Notes: generated by a model not told the origin, from the sequence alone. Positions 48,587 through 55,708 are shown, counted from the first letter of the stretch. The stretch is DNA of 64,000 bases from Aquisphaera giovannonii (GCF_008087625.1 NZ_CP042997.1:5332001-5396000), one strand, 5' to 3'. Numbers and translations: made by a program.

Positions 48587-48919
48587 TCAAGGGATTCGGA
48601 ACGCCGACGTCGTCTCGGAGGGGCGATCGTCGTGCAGATTCGCGGGCCATTGCGGCGTCACGTCGGGGCGGCGGTCCTCCGCTCGGAGGGACGCCCGCAC
48701 CCCCGAGGGTCCCCGCGAGGCCTCCGGCCCAGGCTCCCCCGGCCCTGGGCCACGGGCCGATCGGTCTCCAGCAGGATCGCTCCGGGGCGGCCGGTCCCAG
48801 GCGAGCGGTTGCCACCTGGGTGCCTCGATCCAGGGGCGACATCGGGGGAAGGCGAGCCAGACGACGACGAATCCGCCCACGAGCACCGTCACGGCGGCGA
48901 CGATCACGTTGATGGTCAC
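48587..48919 (-). CDS. Small single-span protein after the cbb3-type oxidase (CcoQ/CcoS-like position)
   Basis: 110 aa. One N-terminal membrane helix (VIVAAVTVLVGGFVVVWLAF) is followed by a Pro/Arg-rich tail. It starts with GTG at 48919, 5 bases after the oxidase stop, with a perfect AAGGAG site that lies inside the oxidase gene's last codons. Position and single helix suggest an assembly or stability subunit like CcoQ or CcoS, but sequence similarity is not shown. Confidence 0.6.
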   Translation of the reverse strand: MTINVIVAAVTVLVGGFVVVWLAFPRCRPWIEAPRWQPLAWDRPPRSDPAGDRSARGPGPGEPGPEASRGPSGVRASLRAEDRRPDVTPQWPANLHDDRPSETTSAFRIP

Positions 48920-48924
48920 GCATC

Positions 48925-51555
48925 TCACTCCTTGCCGAAGAAGGAACGGACGTAGCGGGCCAGGAGCTTCTGCTCCTCCGGTGTGAGCTTGCCCGCCCAG
49001 CGGGGCATCGCCGAGCCCCGGACCCCGCGGGCCAGGGCCGACTCGGCATAGGCCGTCGTGGGCCGGACTTCGTGGAAGTCCGTCGGGATCGGGGCCAGGA
49101 TCGCCGCGGACGGCCCGTCCCCTCGGCCCTCCGGCCCGTGGCAGACGGCGCATTGCCTGGCGAAGAGTCCTCGGGCCGCCGCCCGCTCTTCCGCATCGAG
49201 CTCGGGCGACGGATCCGATGGGGCGATCGTCCCCAGGAAGGCGACCAGCCCCCGCAGGTCCCCGGCGGTCAGGTCGTTCCAGGGGGGCATGGACGAACCC
49301 CGGATCCCATTCCAGAGGGATTCGCTCAGGCGGCGGTCGGAGAACCGGGCGACGGTCAGGTCGCGAGGGGCGGGGGTCAAGGCGACCGCCGCCGGCCCGT
49401 CCCCTCGGCCCTCCGGCCCGTGGCACCCGGCGCAGTCGCGGGCGAACACCCCGGCCCCCCTGCGGGCGAATCGGTCCCCCTCGCCGACCGCCAGCGCCAT
49501 GTCCCAGATCGGGGCCTTGCCCGCGGTCCGGGGTATGGAGCAGTCGCAGAACATCCCCTTGCGTCGCTCCTCCTCGGGGTCGCGGCCCGGCAGCGGACCC
49601 GGGCCGGAGAGGCCCGCCAGCCGGGCATCCCGCCCCAGCGATCCCAGGTAGTTCACCAGGTCGAGCGCCTCCGATCTCGGTCGGGTCGGCGAGCCGTCGA
49701 ACAGCCACGGATAGCCGGGCATGATCGAATCGGGGACGACGTGCCGGGGGTTCCAGAGGTGGGCGAGTTGCCAGTCCCTCGGCCTCCGCCCGCCCTCGCG
49801 GGCCAGGTCCGGGCCGATCCGCCGGGTCCCCCACATCTGGGGGGCATCGCCGTCGCCCTCCCACGCCCGGCTCGCCGGCCCGAACCGCCGTACGTCCTCC
49901 TCGGTGAATCGGACGAGCTGCGAGTGGCAGTTCATGCACCCCTCGCGGGCGTAGACCAGCCGGCCCCGGGCCTCGGACGCCGACATCGCCCCCGAGCCGG
50001 TCGGCCGCGTCCGGGCGATCTGGTCCCGCAGATCCCGATTCGGCCAGAGGCCCAGGACGACGAACGAGAAGGCGAACAGGCCGACCCCGGCGCCGGCGAC
50101 CAGCACGTAGGCGTCCTTGAGCCAGCGGGCCCCGGCCACCTCCTCCTCGGCCCCGTCCTGCTGGGCCGACCCGGCGTCGGCCTCTCGCCCCGGTGCCGGG
50201 ACGACGAGCGGGCCGGTCGTCATCGACGTCACGACGGCGAGGAATCCGGCCAGGACGACGCCGCCCGAGATCGAGCGGGCCCACCAGAACGGGGCCGAGG
50301 CCCGCACGGAGTCCATCCAGGGCAGGTCGCCCCGCCAGAGCTGCCCCTGGACCAGCCCGGCCGCCGTCAGGTCGAGGACCATCGCCGCCAGCCCGAGGGA
50401 CAGCAGCCAGAACGACCATCCGGCCGCCGCCCGGTTGTACCGGCAGCCCGGCGTCAGCCGCCAGGCGTGCAGCAGCCCCCCCAGGGCCGTGAACGAGGCG
50501 AACCCGATCATCGCCAGGTGCGAATGGCCGATCACCCAATCCGTGAAGTGGGTGAAGCGGTTCAGCGGCATGATCGACTGGGCCGAGCCCTGCAGGCTGA
50601 CGACCAGGTAGGCGACCGTCCCGGTCCAGACGTAGAGCAGCGGTATGTCGGAGCCGACGACGGCCGACCGGCCGCGGAGCGAGAGCAGCAGGTTCGTCAC
50701 GACCAGGATCACGTCGACCCCGAGGTAGACGGAGGCGACGATCGCCCCCTTCTGCGCCTCCATCGGGATCGACGAGAAGACGTAATGGTGCGTGCCGTTC
50801 AGCGGGTACAGGAGGAACAGCAGCCAGAACCCGATCATCGACAGGAAGTGGCTGAAGATCGGCCGGCCGGAGACGGCCGGGATGACGGCGTAGGCGATCG
50901 CGAGGGCCAGCGGGGTGACGAACAGCCCCACGGCGTCGTGGATCCAGAGCCCGCTGAACGTCGCCCCCCGCGCGCCGGGGAGGTATTCGGGGACGACATT
51001 GCCGACCGGGTAGGCCAGCAGGGTGAAGGTCAGCCCGCCCAGGATGTACCAGGCCGAGACGTACAGGCTCGGCACCCTGGCCCGCAGCAGCGGCACGACG
51101 AACTGGGCGACGGCCAGGAGCAGCCCCAGCGTCGCCGCCCCGTCGACCGGCAGCGGGAACTCGGCCCACTCGAGCGGCTGGCTCACCCCGGCCTGGACGA
51201 GCCCCCAGCCGGCCAGCACCAGCAGCCCGTTCCAGACGGCAAACAACGCCCAGCCGAGCCGGACGCCCGTGACCGGGCGGGCCGCCAGCCGGGGCACGAC
51301 GAAGTACAGGAAGGCCAGGAAGGCGTTCCCCAGCCAGCCGAAGAAGAGCCCCTGAGTGTGGGCGTAGCGGAGCCGCCCCCAAGACAGCCAGGGGATGTCG
51401 CCGAGCCAGCCCGGCGCGTGGAATCGGATCGACATCACCAGCCCGAGCCCGGCCACGTAGAGCACGCTCGCCAGGGCGGCGTAGCCGTGCCAGCGGATCA
51501 GGGCCGGGATCGTGGGCATGTCGCCCGATGGCCTTCCTTCATTGGTCCTGGACAT
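48925..51555 (-). CDS. Single-chain cbb3-type oxidase: CcoN-CcoO fusion with two further cytochrome c domains
   Basis: 876 aa. The first about 480 residues are CcoN with about twelve helices: YAHTQGLFFGWLGNAFLAFL, WIHDAVGLFVTPLALAIAYA, LNGTHHYVFSSIP (copper-site His) and RFTHFTDWVIGHSHLAMIGF (haem His). After a short linker and one helix comes a CcoO domain with haem motif CMNCH at 540, then QMWGTRRIGPDLAREGG and MPGYPWLF. Two CcoP-like domains follow with CAGCH at 708 and CAVCH at 802. Normally N, O and P are separate genes. It reduces oxygen to water at high affinity and takes electrons from cytochrome c. It sits 52 bases after the SorB-like cytochrome gene. The start at 51555 is likely; MPTIPALIRW offers an alternative. 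Confidence 0.88.
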   Translation of the reverse strand: MSRTNEGRPSGDMPTIPALIRWHGYAALASVLYVAGLGLVMSIRFHAPGWLGDIPWLSWGRLRYAHTQGLFFGWLGNAFLAFLYFVVPRLAARPVTGVRLGWALFAVWNGLLVLAGWGLVQAGVSQPLEWAEFPLPVDGAATLGLLLAVAQFVVPLLRARVPSLYVSAWYILGGLTFTLLAYPVGNVVPEYLPGARGATFSGLWIHDAVGLFVTPLALAIAYAVIPAVSGRPIFSHFLSMIGFWLLFLLYPLNGTHHYVFSSIPMEAQKGAIVASVYLGVDVILVVTNLLLSLRGRSAVVGSDIPLLYVWTGTVAYLVVSLQGSAQSIMPLNRFTHFTDWVIGHSHLAMIGFASFTALGGLLHAWRLTPGCRYNRAAAGWSFWLLSLGLAAMVLDLTAAGLVQGQLWRGDLPWMDSVRASAPFWWARSISGGVVLAGFLAVVTSMTTGPLVVPAPGREADAGSAQQDGAEEEVAGARWLKDAYVLVAGAGVGLFAFSFVVLGLWPNRDLRDQIARTRPTGSGAMSASEARGRLVYAREGCMNCHSQLVRFTEEDVRRFGPASRAWEGDGDAPQMWGTRRIGPDLAREGGRRPRDWQLAHLWNPRHVVPDSIMPGYPWLFDGSPTRPRSEALDLVNYLGSLGRDARLAGLSGPGPLPGRDPEEERRKGMFCDCSIPRTAGKAPIWDMALAVGEGDRFARRGAGVFARDCAGCHGPEGRGDGPAAVALTPAPRDLTVARFSDRRLSESLWNGIRGSSMPPWNDLTAGDLRGLVAFLGTIAPSDPSPELDAEERAAARGLFARQCAVCHGPEGRGDGPSAAILAPIPTDFHEVRPTTAYAESALARGVRGSAMPRWAGKLTPEEQKLLARYVRSFFGKE

Positions 51556-51607
51556 GAGGTCCTCGGAGCCCCCGGCGGGGCGGATGTTCGGCGAGCGGTC
51601 GGGCCGG

Positions 51608-52039
51608 TCAGGGGCCGGGCGGCCGGACGGCCAGCAGGTAGTCCACGACTTCGTCCTCCTGCTGGGGCGTCGCCGGTGCCCCGTAAGCGGCCACCATCTT
51701 GTGGACGATCTCGGCCCATCTCTCTCGGCCGAATCGGGGCTGGCCGAGCGGCAGGCGGGCCGAGTGGCAGACCAGGCATGAGGTCTGGAACTCGTCCCGA
51801 TGCGGCCCCTCCGGCAGGTCGATGTCCCAGGCCGGGTCGGCCTCCTCAACCGAGGCGGCGGCGGGCGTGGCCTCGGGGAGCCGGTCGGCGACCACCCAGG
51901 CGTCCCTCGTCCCGAAGTAGGAGAACCCGGCGGCGATCAGGCCCAGCGCCAACGCCAGGGACAGGCCGAAGCGCCGGCGACGGGTGGCGTCGGCGTCGCG
52001 GCCGGAATCCGTGCGGTCTGCGGTCGGCTCAGGTGACAT
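51608..52039 (-). CDS. Membrane-anchored cytochrome c, SorB-like
   Basis: 143 aa. One N-terminal helix (FGLSLALALGLIAAGFSYFG) anchors a single-haem domain with CLVCH and a distal Met-type region (WAEIVHKMVAAYGAPATPQQ). The gene overlaps the molybdenum enzyme gene by 11 bases. In SorAB sulfite dehydrogenases this subunit takes electrons from the molybdenum centre. It lies immediately before the oxidase gene. Confidence 0.85.
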   Translation of the reverse strand: MSPEPTADRTDSGRDADATRRRRFGLSLALALGLIAAGFSYFGTRDAWVVADRLPEATPAAASVEEADPAWDIDLPEGPHRDEFQTSCLVCHSARLPLGQPRFGRERWAEIVHKMVAAYGAPATPQQEDEVVDYLLAVRPPGP

Positions 52040-53222
52040 GGACGGTCAACTCCTCCACCACGTTCCTCATGTACCCGCCCCGGTTCCAGCCCGCGACGTC
52101 GGGCTGCACCTGGCCATCTCCGGCCGTGGCCCGGCACCGGAGCCTGTGCTCGCCCGGCGACGTCGGGGTCCATCGGTGCCGCCAGCGGCGGAAGGAGTAT
52201 CGGCCCAGGTCGTCGCCGAGGGTCGACTCGACCCAGGTCGAGCCGCCGTCGGTCGAGACCTCGACGGCCCGGATGCCGCTGCCTCCGTCGAAGGCGATCC
52301 CGGCGACCTCGACCGGCCGTCCCGCCGCCAGCGTCGCCCCCGACTCGGGGGACGTGACGAGCGAGCGGACGTTCATCCGGCTGATCGGGACGGTGGGCCC
52401 GGTCGACGTCGCGAGGGGATCCTCGACGCCGTTGGGGGTGGCCGGGATGTGGTAGGCCTTGGCCATCCAGTAGCCGTCGAAGCGGCGGGGCAGGACGGTG
52501 ATCCGGTGCAGGCACTTGACCCAGTAGGTGGCATACCAGCCGGGGACCACCAGCCGGGCCGGGAAGCCATTGAGCGCCGGCAGGGGCCGGCCGTTCATCG
52601 AGTACGCCACCGTGACTTCCGGCCGGAGGGCGTGGTCGATGGCGAGCGACTTGACGAAGTCGGGGACCGAGGCGAGCGGGCCCTCGTCCAGGCCGTCGAA
52701 GGTGACCTCGACGGCGTCCCGCCCGACCCCCGCCATCCTCAGCAGCCGGGCGAGCCCGACGCCCGCCCAGCGGGCGTTGCCCATCGCCCCGTGCCGCCAC
52801 TGGGCCCCGGGGACCCGCGGCCCGAACAGGCCGCGGGAGTTGCCCGAGCACTGATTGACGGCCACCACCTCATCCTCGCCGAGTCGCCGGAGGTCGTCCA
52901 TCGACAACTCCAGGGGACGGTCCACGGCCCCGCCGACGCGGAGCCGCCAGGCCCGCAGATCGACCGCCATCGGGAATGCCTGGAGGTGCCAGCGGACGTA
53001 GAACGCCTCGTTCGGCGTCAAGTCATCCTGGAAGTACCGCCACGGGGTCTCCAGGCAGGGCGGCCGGTCGTTCACGATCCGCATCGCCACCTTCCCCGGG
53101 AACCGACCGACGGTATCCCCCTCGCCATCGGGCACGGGGAGCCCGGGGCGTCCACCGGAACAGCCGGTGGACGCCAGGGAAACCCCCATCCCGAGCATCC
53201 ACTCCCGACGCGTCATCCCCAT
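52029..53222 (-). CDS. Sulfite oxidase-family molybdopterin oxidoreductase, SorA-like
   Basis: 397 aa. The signal region (TRREWMLGMGVSLASTGCSG) could be a Tat or lipoprotein-type signal. The molybdenum-ligating cysteine is C125 in VAVNQCSGNSRGLFGP. A C-terminal dimerisation domain has VEVSTDGGSTWVESTLGDD and RCRATAGDGQVQPDVAGWN. Sulfite dehydrogenase oxidises sulfite to sulfate in the periplasm; other substrates of the family cannot be excluded. The ATG at 53222 has GAGG upstream. Operon with the cytochrome and oxidase. Confidence 0.88.
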   Translation of the reverse strand: MGMTRREWMLGMGVSLASTGCSGGRPGLPVPDGEGDTVGRFPGKVAMRIVNDRPPCLETPWRYFQDDLTPNEAFYVRWHLQAFPMAVDLRAWRLRVGGAVDRPLELSMDDLRRLGEDEVVAVNQCSGNSRGLFGPRVPGAQWRHGAMGNARWAGVGLARLLRMAGVGRDAVEVTFDGLDEGPLASVPDFVKSLAIDHALRPEVTVAYSMNGRPLPALNGFPARLVVPGWYATYWVKCLHRITVLPRRFDGYWMAKAYHIPATPNGVEDPLATSTGPTVPISRMNVRSLVTSPESGATLAAGRPVEVAGIAFDGGSGIRAVEVSTDGGSTWVESTLGDDLGRYSFRRWRHRWTPTSPGEHRLRCRATAGDGQVQPDVAGWNRGGYMRNVVEELTVHVT

Positions 53223-53288: not shown

Positions 53289-53927
53289 TCACCCCCCCAA
53301 CGGGTTGGCCGCGATCAGGTCGCAGAAGTTGACGCGGCGATAGTCGGGCTGCGTCCGCTCGAGGACGTCCGTGTTCATGGTCCCGAACGTCGTCTCCGGC
53401 CGGTAACCGAAACCGTCGGCGAACGCCCGGACGATCCCCTTCTTGAAGTCGAGCCGCGGGTACGCGGCGAGGACGCTCGCCCGGTCCTCCTCGGCGATCT
53501 CGTCGAGCCCGTCGCCGAGGACGTCGGCCTCGACCCCGCCGGTCACCAGCGCGATCTCCGGGCGCTTGTGCCAGGGGATCTCCGGGGTCGTGTGCAGCGC
53601 GATCGCGTCCCAGACGACCCCCGCCTGCTCCTCCCCGATGCCGTTGGCCCGCAGGAAGTCGCGGGCCGCATTCGCCCCGTCTACCTCGAACCGGTGGTCC
53701 CGGCTCCGGTACTTCGGCGTGAGCCCGAAGTCGTGGAAGACGGCCCCGGCGTAGAGCAGCTCGTGATCAACTTGCAGCCCCCGATGGCGGCCGCGGATCG
53801 CCCCGAAGAGGAAGACCCTCAGCGAGTGGGCGTACAGCAGGGGCGTGCCGTGCTCCCGGAGCAGGTCGGTCGCCTCGCGGGCGAGCTTGCTGTCGGGGAT
53901 CCGGATCCCCGCGATGACTTCAGCCAT
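53289..53927 (-). CDS. HD-domain hydrolase, copy 1
   Basis: 212 aa. The metal motif is AHSLRVFLFGAI followed by AGAVFHDFGL (HD) and a later IALHTTPEIPWH. The overall pattern (FEVDGANAARDFLRANGI, PEIALVTGGVEADVLG) recalls the cyanamide-hydratase-like HD group, so the role may be hydrolysis of a small nitrogen or phospho compound (inference). It is the same length as the gene at 55070 and highly similar. GGAGGTG precedes the ATG. The gene lies 66 bases before sorA. Confidence 0.88.
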   Translation of the reverse strand: MAEVIAGIRIPDSKLAREATDLLREHGTPLLYAHSLRVFLFGAIRGRHRGLQVDHELLYAGAVFHDFGLTPKYRSRDHRFEVDGANAARDFLRANGIGEEQAGVVWDAIALHTTPEIPWHKRPEIALVTGGVEADVLGDGLDEIAEEDRASVLAAYPRLDFKKGIVRAFADGFGYRPETTFGTMNTDVLERTQPDYRRVNFCDLIAANPLGG

Positions 53928-55069: not shown

Positions 55070-55708
55070 TCATCCTCCCAGCGGGTTGGCGTCGATCAGG
55101 TCGCAGAAGTTCGTCCGGTGGTAGCCGGGCAGCCCCCGCTCCAGCAGGTCGGCGTTGAACGTCCCGAACGCGGTCGCCGGCCTGTGCGCGAGGCCGTCCA
55201 CGAACGCGCGGATGATCCCGCAGGCGAAGTCGCCGCGCGGGTAGGCGGCCAGGATGGCCTCGCGGTCGGCGGCCGGGATCTCGTCGATCCCCCGGCCGAT
55301 GACGTCCGCCGCGGTCCCGCCGTTCATGAGCGCGATCTCCGGGCGCTTGTGCCAGGGGATCTCCAGCGTCGTGTGCAGGGCGATGGAGTCCCACACCAGC
55401 TCGGCCGGGCCCTCCCCGATGCCGTTGGCCCGCAGGAAGTCGCGGGCCGCATTCGCCCCGTCCACCTCGAACCGGTGGTCCCGGCTCCGGTACTTCGCGG
55501 TCAGCCCCATGTCGTGGAACATGGCACCGACGTAGAACAGCTCGTGGTCGATCGTCCAGCCGCGGTGCCGGCCCTGGATCGCCCCGAACAGGTAGACCCT
55601 CTGCGAGTGGGCGAGGAGCAGCGGGGTGCCGTGCTCGCGCACCAGGTCGGTCGCCTCCCGGGCCAGCTTGCTGTCGGGGATCCGGATCCCCGCGACGATT
55701 TCGCTCAT
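55070..55708 (-). CDS. HD-domain hydrolase, copy 2
   Basis: 212 aa. It aligns without gaps to the protein at 53289-53927. HD site: AHSQRVYLFGAI, VGAMFHDMGL, IALHTTLEIPWH. The central 30 residues (KYRSRDHRFEVDGANAARDF) are identical. At DNA level a stretch near 55416-55490 matches its twin with one or two changes, which suggests a recent tandem duplication or gene conversion. Differences gather at the C-terminus. Confidence 0.88.
   Translation of the reverse strand: MSEIVAGIRIPDSKLAREATDLVREHGTPLLLAHSQRVYLFGAIQGRHRGWTIDHELFYVGAMFHDMGLTAKYRSRDHRFEVDGANAARDFLRANGIGEGPAELVWDSIALHTTLEIPWHKRPEIALMNGGTAADVIGRGIDEIPAADREAILAAYPRGDFACGIIRAFVDGLAHRPATAFGTFNADLLERGLPGYHRTNFCDLIDANPLGG

Follow-up and report, generated by a model that had tools for sequence, protein, structure and literature searches.

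The sulfite dehydrogenase SorAB of Starkeya novella is a soluble enzyme, and dehydrogenases for sulfite and thiosulfate are generally depicted as donors to a shared pool of cytochrome c. A cbb3 oxidase with its N, O and P subunits encoded by a single gene (954 amino acids, aa) has been reported for Nitrospina gracilis (Lucker et al. 2013, PMC3578206; PMC10839748). Here we analyze a stretch of 64,000 nucleotides from Aquisphaera giovannonii (NZ_CP042997.1, 5332001-5396000; the window), in which a cbb3-type oxidase gene directly adjoins genes for such a dehydrogenase: sorA, sorB, a single gene for a fused oxidase and a small open reading frame (ORF) form a four-gene cassette that is probably a compact sulfite-to-oxygen respiratory module, as judged from sequence and gene order. 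A sequence-only reading of the window had noted that the three subunits normally have separate genes; the N. gracilis gene (954 aa, PMC3578206) is a precedent for their fusion. The kinds of enzyme involved, cbb3 oxidase and SorAB, are known; the variant seen here is an oxidase clade that is linked to sulfur dehydrogenases as exchangeable front ends and that is fused in many of its members.

A cbb3-type oxidase in a single frame

The 876-codon oxidase frame contains no stop, and the proposal that it joins CcoN, a CcoO domain and two further cytochrome c domains (CxxCH motifs beginning at C540, C708 and C802) is borne out by translation and by Pfam, which places COX1 at residues 20-431, FixO at 524-621 (1.7e-36) and Cytochrome_CBB3 on each of two C-terminal stretches. 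Both the mono-haem CcoO and the di-haem CcoP cytochrome types are represented by these FixO and Cytochrome_CBB3 matches, and the CcoP-like part matches PDB 3mk7_C at 5.8e-8. No frame break separates the domains: relatives from the same family or class align collinearly over their full length at 55-68% identity, and the same single frame is found on about 30 further contigs, so the fusion is neither a product of chance nor an assembly error.

An AlphaFold model of the oxidase (predicted local distance difference test 79.5, predicted template modeling score 0.80) contains the 12 helices of CcoN and a 13th, belonging to CcoO, at residues 474-516, while the membrane helix of CcoP itself is absent. 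The best fold match is the cbb3 CcoN of P. stutzeri (3mk7) and P. aeruginosa (8smr), with a Z of 47.6 in VIA-align, in a list that was filled by the CcoN domain and barely covered the c-haem parts. Nitric oxide reductase NorB chains come next (Z 43.1 and 41.1), which would be the point in favor of reading the oxidase part as a nitric oxide reductase. We regard this as very improbable, given that cbb3 CcoN ranks first in both sequence and fold, that the protein includes CcoO and CcoP-like parts, and that the oxidase ligands and the active-site tyrosine do not vary. Five of the six histidine ligands of haem b, haem b3 and CuB (H66, H206, H256, H257, H344 and H346) are identical in 61 of 61 CcoN sequences, with the sixth, H66 of haem b, kept in all 60 that cover its position; Y250, at the C-family position of the active-site tyrosine (Y251 of P. 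stutzeri), is likewise found in 61 of 61. In P. stutzeri numbering, E122, E125, S240, N289 and Y317 are retained across the CcoN alignment, and Y223 is Y or F. Of these, Y223, S240, N289 and Y317 are assigned to the cbb3 proton-input path in the literature.

By its ligands and predicted fold, the window oxidase is a cbb3-type (C-family) haem-copper oxidase. Its CcoN part scores 150.8 bits against the curated TIGR00780 (ccoN) model, below the cut-off of 583.15, which is also missed by the ordinary CcoN of the same genome. We therefore call it cbb3-type on the basis of ligands and fold and not a TIGR00780 equivalog.

The sulfur dehydrogenase beside the oxidase

The oxidase gene directly follows genes for a SorA-like molybdenum (Mo) enzyme and a SorB-like cytochrome, as the sequence-only reading had it, with an 11-base overlap between sorA and sorB and a 52-base gap between sorB and the oxidase gene. 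SorA carries the Pfam Oxidored_molyb and dimerisation domains and has its Mo-ligand cysteine, C125, within VNQCSGN. It matches NCBIfam SorA at 4e-148 with 493.4 bits, short of the curated cut-off of 600 but far above its scores for SorT (189) and SoxC (169), and Starkeya SorA (2blf_A) at 6.7e-113; the active-site Arg, His, Cys and Tyr are kept, as checked by alignment to 2blf and to its Arg and Tyr mutants. SorB matches NCBIfam SorB at 5.9e-13 (48.7 bits, cut-off 93 missed), and its match to 2blf_B is weak (0.00096), yet the CxxCH and a likely Met ligand (HKM motif) are aligned.

A scan of named genomes, with patterns that lie inside CcoN and so impose no selection for neighbors, returned 52 loci, about 30 of which encode all parts in a continuous frame of roughly 860-940 aa. 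When these loci were searched with SorA, SorB, TsdA and TsdB queries, a sulfur dehydrogenase adjoined the oxidase in 49 of 49 informative loci (SorAB in 33, TsdA in 16), some of which are near-identical, so that they do not amount to 49 independent events; the remaining three loci are cut by contig ends. SorAB lies directly upstream of the oxidase in 33 of the 52, TsdBA upstream in eight, always with a split oxidase, and a TsdA-like gene downstream in another eight. The Paraburkholderia TsdA matches thiosulfate dehydrogenase 5lo9 at 5.1e-80, and the downstream type matches a solved thiosulfate dehydrogenase at 3.9e-40. All four Acidobacteriota loci found later have TsdA adjacent, bringing the total to 53 of 53, and neither SorA nor TsdA occurs at six cbb3 loci outside the clade. 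The proposed link to sulfite stands for the window, where SorAB is adjacent, and is wider than had been claimed, as in some related loci a thiosulfate dehydrogenase takes the place of SorAB. We had also considered that fused loci always pair with SorAB, which proved wrong: two new fused Acidobacteriota loci and those of Gammaproteobacteria pair with TsdA.

Among 59 relatives, the full oxidase gene is present in eight, all eight of which carry a SorA of at least 58% identity; only two other SorA occur in the set, at 43-44% identity. Moreover, the pairwise identities of CcoN and SorA correlate at 0.75 over 28 loci, a value reached by none of 2000 permutations, from which we conclude that the cassette travels together. 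That the gene adjacency is a coincidence or an effect of assembly is extremely improbable. Many of the comparison genomes are metagenome bins, and we found no point that supports this explanation; the 53 informative loci and the co-divergence of SorA and CcoN argue against it, as does the recurrence of the same gene order in complete or isolate genomes (the chromosome of Planctomycetes bacterium Pan216, CP036279; Carideicomes; Pseudomonas spelaei).

A second explanation on which the neighborhood bears is that the enzyme oxidizes cytochrome c with high affinity as a general terminal oxidase served by several donors, such as a bc-type complex, with SorAB as one tributary that shares the operon. 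Cbb3 oxidases do usually draw on the cytochrome c pool, and the fused chain has the usual CcoP-like entry haems. We nevertheless think it unlikely, because that role could fall to the ordinary cbb3-type operon that the genome has in addition and because the neighbor is a sulfur dehydrogenase in every informative locus of the clade.

Table 1. Features of the cassette in the window (positions counted from the first letter of the stretch)
Feature	Position	Strand	Description
sorA, predicted periplasmic molybdopterin sulfite dehydrogenase	52029..53222	(-)	397 aa; twin-arginine (Tat)-type signal (TRREW), then STGC cysteine, compatible with a lipid anchor
sorB, predicted mono-haem cytochrome c subunit	51608..52039	(-)	143 aa, one CxxCH; hydrophobic N-terminal segment
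Fused CcoN-CcoO-CcoP-like cbb3-type oxidase	48925..51555	(-)	876 aa, 13 predicted membrane helices, three c-type haem sites
CcoN part, residues 15-455	50191..51513	(-)	12 helices; ligands of haem b, haem b3, CuB
CcoO part, residues 474-641	49633..50136	(-)	13th helix and haem c domain; C540 MNCH, conserved M612
Two CcoP-like cytochrome c domains, residues 690-872	48940..49488	(-)	C708, C802; conserved M756, M850
Small single-helix protein	48587..48928	(-)	GTG start at 48928 or 48919; overlaps oxidase stop codon

Membrane anchoring and the small ORF

Of 32 distinct SorA sequences, 29 have [GAS]-Cys at an equivalent position behind a hydrophobic signal, which in most is of the twin-arginine type, and this conserved cysteine suggests that the SorA proteins are lipoproteins. 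The SorB proteins of fused loci have an N-terminal helix or a lipobox, and that of Pseudomonas looks secreted; the hydrophobic N-terminal segment of the window SorB is likely an uncleaved membrane anchor. Taken together, SorA and SorB look membrane-anchored in most fused loci.

Nearly every related oxidase gene is followed by one for a single-helix protein of about 45-80 aa with the motif W...P..R.WxEaPKY..L, which is CcoS/FixS-like and for the window ORF is given as W..fP..R.WiEaPk(y/w). The family profile aligns to a CcoS/FixS set, which includes intermediate planctomycete proteins, with an hhalign Prob of 94 over 29 columns, an alignment that is suggestive of a CcoS-like protein. The window ORF alone has no Pfam match, FixS included, and a plasmid search with an approximate CcoS query gave only short Neisseria matches. 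Identity as FixQ was considered and rejected (0.0022, in only two of 27). No FixS match at 1e-4 was found in the genomes of Paraburkholderia, Acetobacter, Pan216 and two Acidobacteriota carriers, which fits a substitute role for the small ORF. It is probably an assembly factor or a small subunit of the CcoS type.

Distribution of the oxidase clade

On the CcoN tree, the split between this clade and all other CcoN has an SH-like approximate likelihood ratio test support of 100. Fused oxidases occur in Planctomycetota, Acidobacteriota, Melainabacteria/Obscuribacterales, Gammaproteobacteria and one alphaproteobacterium (Carideicomes), and the split form, in which CcoN is accompanied by a fused O-P gene, in Paraburkholderia, Pseudomonas, acetic acid bacteria and some Acidobacteriota. 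On a quick CcoN tree, whose long outgroup branches make the rooting unsure, the fused or split state and the SorAB or TsdA partner each require at least two changes. The oxidase is rare: besides the eight of 59 relatives, the full gene was found in three of 392 genomes drawn across the host's phylum, where three further matches proved to be ordinary CcoN at 34-42% identity. It is present in four of 246 Acidobacteriota besides the seed and in none of 243 other Cyanobacteriota, and viral contigs yielded no relative.

Several loci are carried on plasmids. TsdBA and a split oxidase lie on Komagataeibacter xylinus E25 pGX3 and pGX4 (L084, L085), which are typed as mobilizable and of which pGX4 has its O-P gene annotated as two pieces, and on the large plasmid pBIL of Paraburkholderia fungorum (L083). 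A genome of the same genus as the host contains only the C-terminal part of the oxidase (query residues 423-873; L026 2600-3994, G001:C323), well inside a contig, and no SorA was found in that genome; decay or misassembly is a possible cause. The cassette contig of an Acidobacteriaceae genome carries, on the opposite strand, another SorA-like gene that is more distantly related (34% identity; L079 7483-8439). On a Phyllobacterium zundukense plasmid (L087 7001-16178) a distant two-gene cbb3 relative lies near soxYZ, together with genes for a flavoprotein with cytochrome c and a TauE/SafE protein, possibly another sulfur link outside the clade.

A model for sulfite-linked respiration

As far as sequence and genome comparisons reach, the compact sulfite-to-oxygen chain that the sequence-only reading had proposed is supported by intact active sites, a gene order that recurs across phyla and the co-divergence of SorA and CcoN. 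In this model, SorA would oxidize sulfite to sulfate at its Mo center in the periplasm and pass the electrons to the haem c of SorB, from which they would move to the pair of CcoP-like haems near the C terminus of the oxidase, then the CcoO haem, haem b and finally the haem b3-CuB site, where oxygen would be reduced to water. The fusion places all three c haems on one polypeptide, and SorA and SorB are probably tethered to the membrane; electron transfer may therefore be independent of diffusible cytochrome c, quinone and complex III. We infer that the cassette is co-transcribed, that its products form a complex, and that electrons follow this path with a gain of energy.

Extended to the whole clade, we tentatively propose, as a serious candidate short of an expectation, that these are C-family oxidases dedicated to periplasmic sulfur dehydrogenases, in which a swappable SorAB or TsdBA front end is wired straight into the fused three-haem oxidase as a stable membrane supercomplex that bypasses quinone, complex III and soluble cytochrome c.

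Several observations weigh against the respiratory reading of the cassette. SorA, SorB and CcoN all fall below their NCBIfam equivalog cut-offs, and their exact function is therefore assigned by relatedness. The lipobox is non-canonical in several SorA, that of the window included. Relative to P. stutzeri, the window CcoN has W203 replaced by G and E323 by Q; both replacements also occur in the host's ordinary CcoN and in a Sinorhizobium copy, and are therefore a trait of a broad branch and no sign of a defect. A scan that covered sigma-70-like sites only recognized no promoter or terminator at the cassette, and, as regards the limits of the operon, an HD-domain gene lies 66 bases upstream on the same strand.

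It is also conceivable, if somewhat doubtful, that the cassette serves mainly to detoxify sulfite from the breakdown of sulfonates or sulfur amino acids, with oxygen as a convenient sink and energy gained barely or not at all. In favor of this, the host is probably heterotrophic, being a planctomycete, and no sulfur-oxidation genes were seen beside the cassette among the genes inspected. Conversely, a proton-translocating oxidase type would be an expensive choice for this purpose alone, the residues assigned to its proton-input path (Y223 as Y or F, S240, N289, Y317) are retained, and the thiosulfate-linked relatives fit energy gain better. The cassette likely serves to remove sulfite while yielding some energy.

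The occurrence of this oxidase clade beside a dehydrogenase, fused or split, across four phyla and on plasmids makes it a testable modular sulfur-to-oxygen chain. It predicts sulfur oxidation in groups for which we found no report of it, namely planctomycetes, non-photosynthetic Cyanobacteriota, soil Acidobacteriota and acetic acid bacteria, and the open-access literature searched contained no report of a SorAB- or TsdA-linked cbb3 clade. Furthermore, the fused cassette is a compact target for structural work, and a cbb3 annotation by itself should not be taken to imply ordinary low-oxygen respiration.

Flanking genes and the second cbb3-type operon

Just upstream of sorA, two HD-domain-like genes (53289-53927 and 55070-55708, minus strand; products 75% identical over 212 aa) flank a gene of the metallo-beta-lactamase fold, and the pair is a local duplication. 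The HD-domain, beta-lactamase-fold, cupin and alcohol dehydrogenase-like flanking genes were considered as parts of the cassette and rejected, being absent at other loci. The ordinary cbb3-type operon of the host genome (L030 8288-13392, G000:C1 about 7110300-7115400) encodes CcoN, a separate CcoO, a copper-ATPase-like protein of the CcoI type and a two-helix protein that has the EAPKY motif of the small ORF and matches FixS weakly.

Comparison with known systems

As reported, the N. gracilis oxidase shares with that of the window a single gene that joins CcoN and CcoO to a di-haem CcoP part, as well as 13 membrane helices and the W203 to G replacement, and N. gracilis likewise has a sulfite:cytochrome c oxidoreductase (PMC3578206; PMC10839748). 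Its reported signature of His202, Gly203, Tyr205 and Tyr208 differs from the S, G, W and D of the window. The Sinorhizobium copy (L086) has H, G, Y and Y at these positions, that is, the type reported for Nitrospina, whereas the clade described here has Ser202, Trp205 and Asp208. As its signature is that of the Sinorhizobium copy and not of this clade, the N. gracilis fusion probably arose independently, to judge by these reported residues.

Compared with the three-gene CcoNOP of P. stutzeri (3mk7), the window oxidase has the same catalytic fold and ligands, a mono-haem CcoO and a di-haem CcoP-like part, but it is fused, has lost the CcoP membrane helix, has a shortened CcoO and shares only about 26% identity in CcoN. 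Starkeya SorAB (2blf) is likewise a Mo enzyme with a mono-haem cytochrome and has the same active-site residues, whereas in the window both subunits look membrane-anchored, and their genes accompany that of a terminal oxidase. Finally, the TsdBA (5lo9, 4wqc) loci of Paraburkholderia, Acetobacter and Komagataeibacter contain the same oxidase clade and the small ORF, and differ from the window in that the predicted donor is thiosulfate and not sulfite and that the oxidase is encoded by two genes, N plus O-P.

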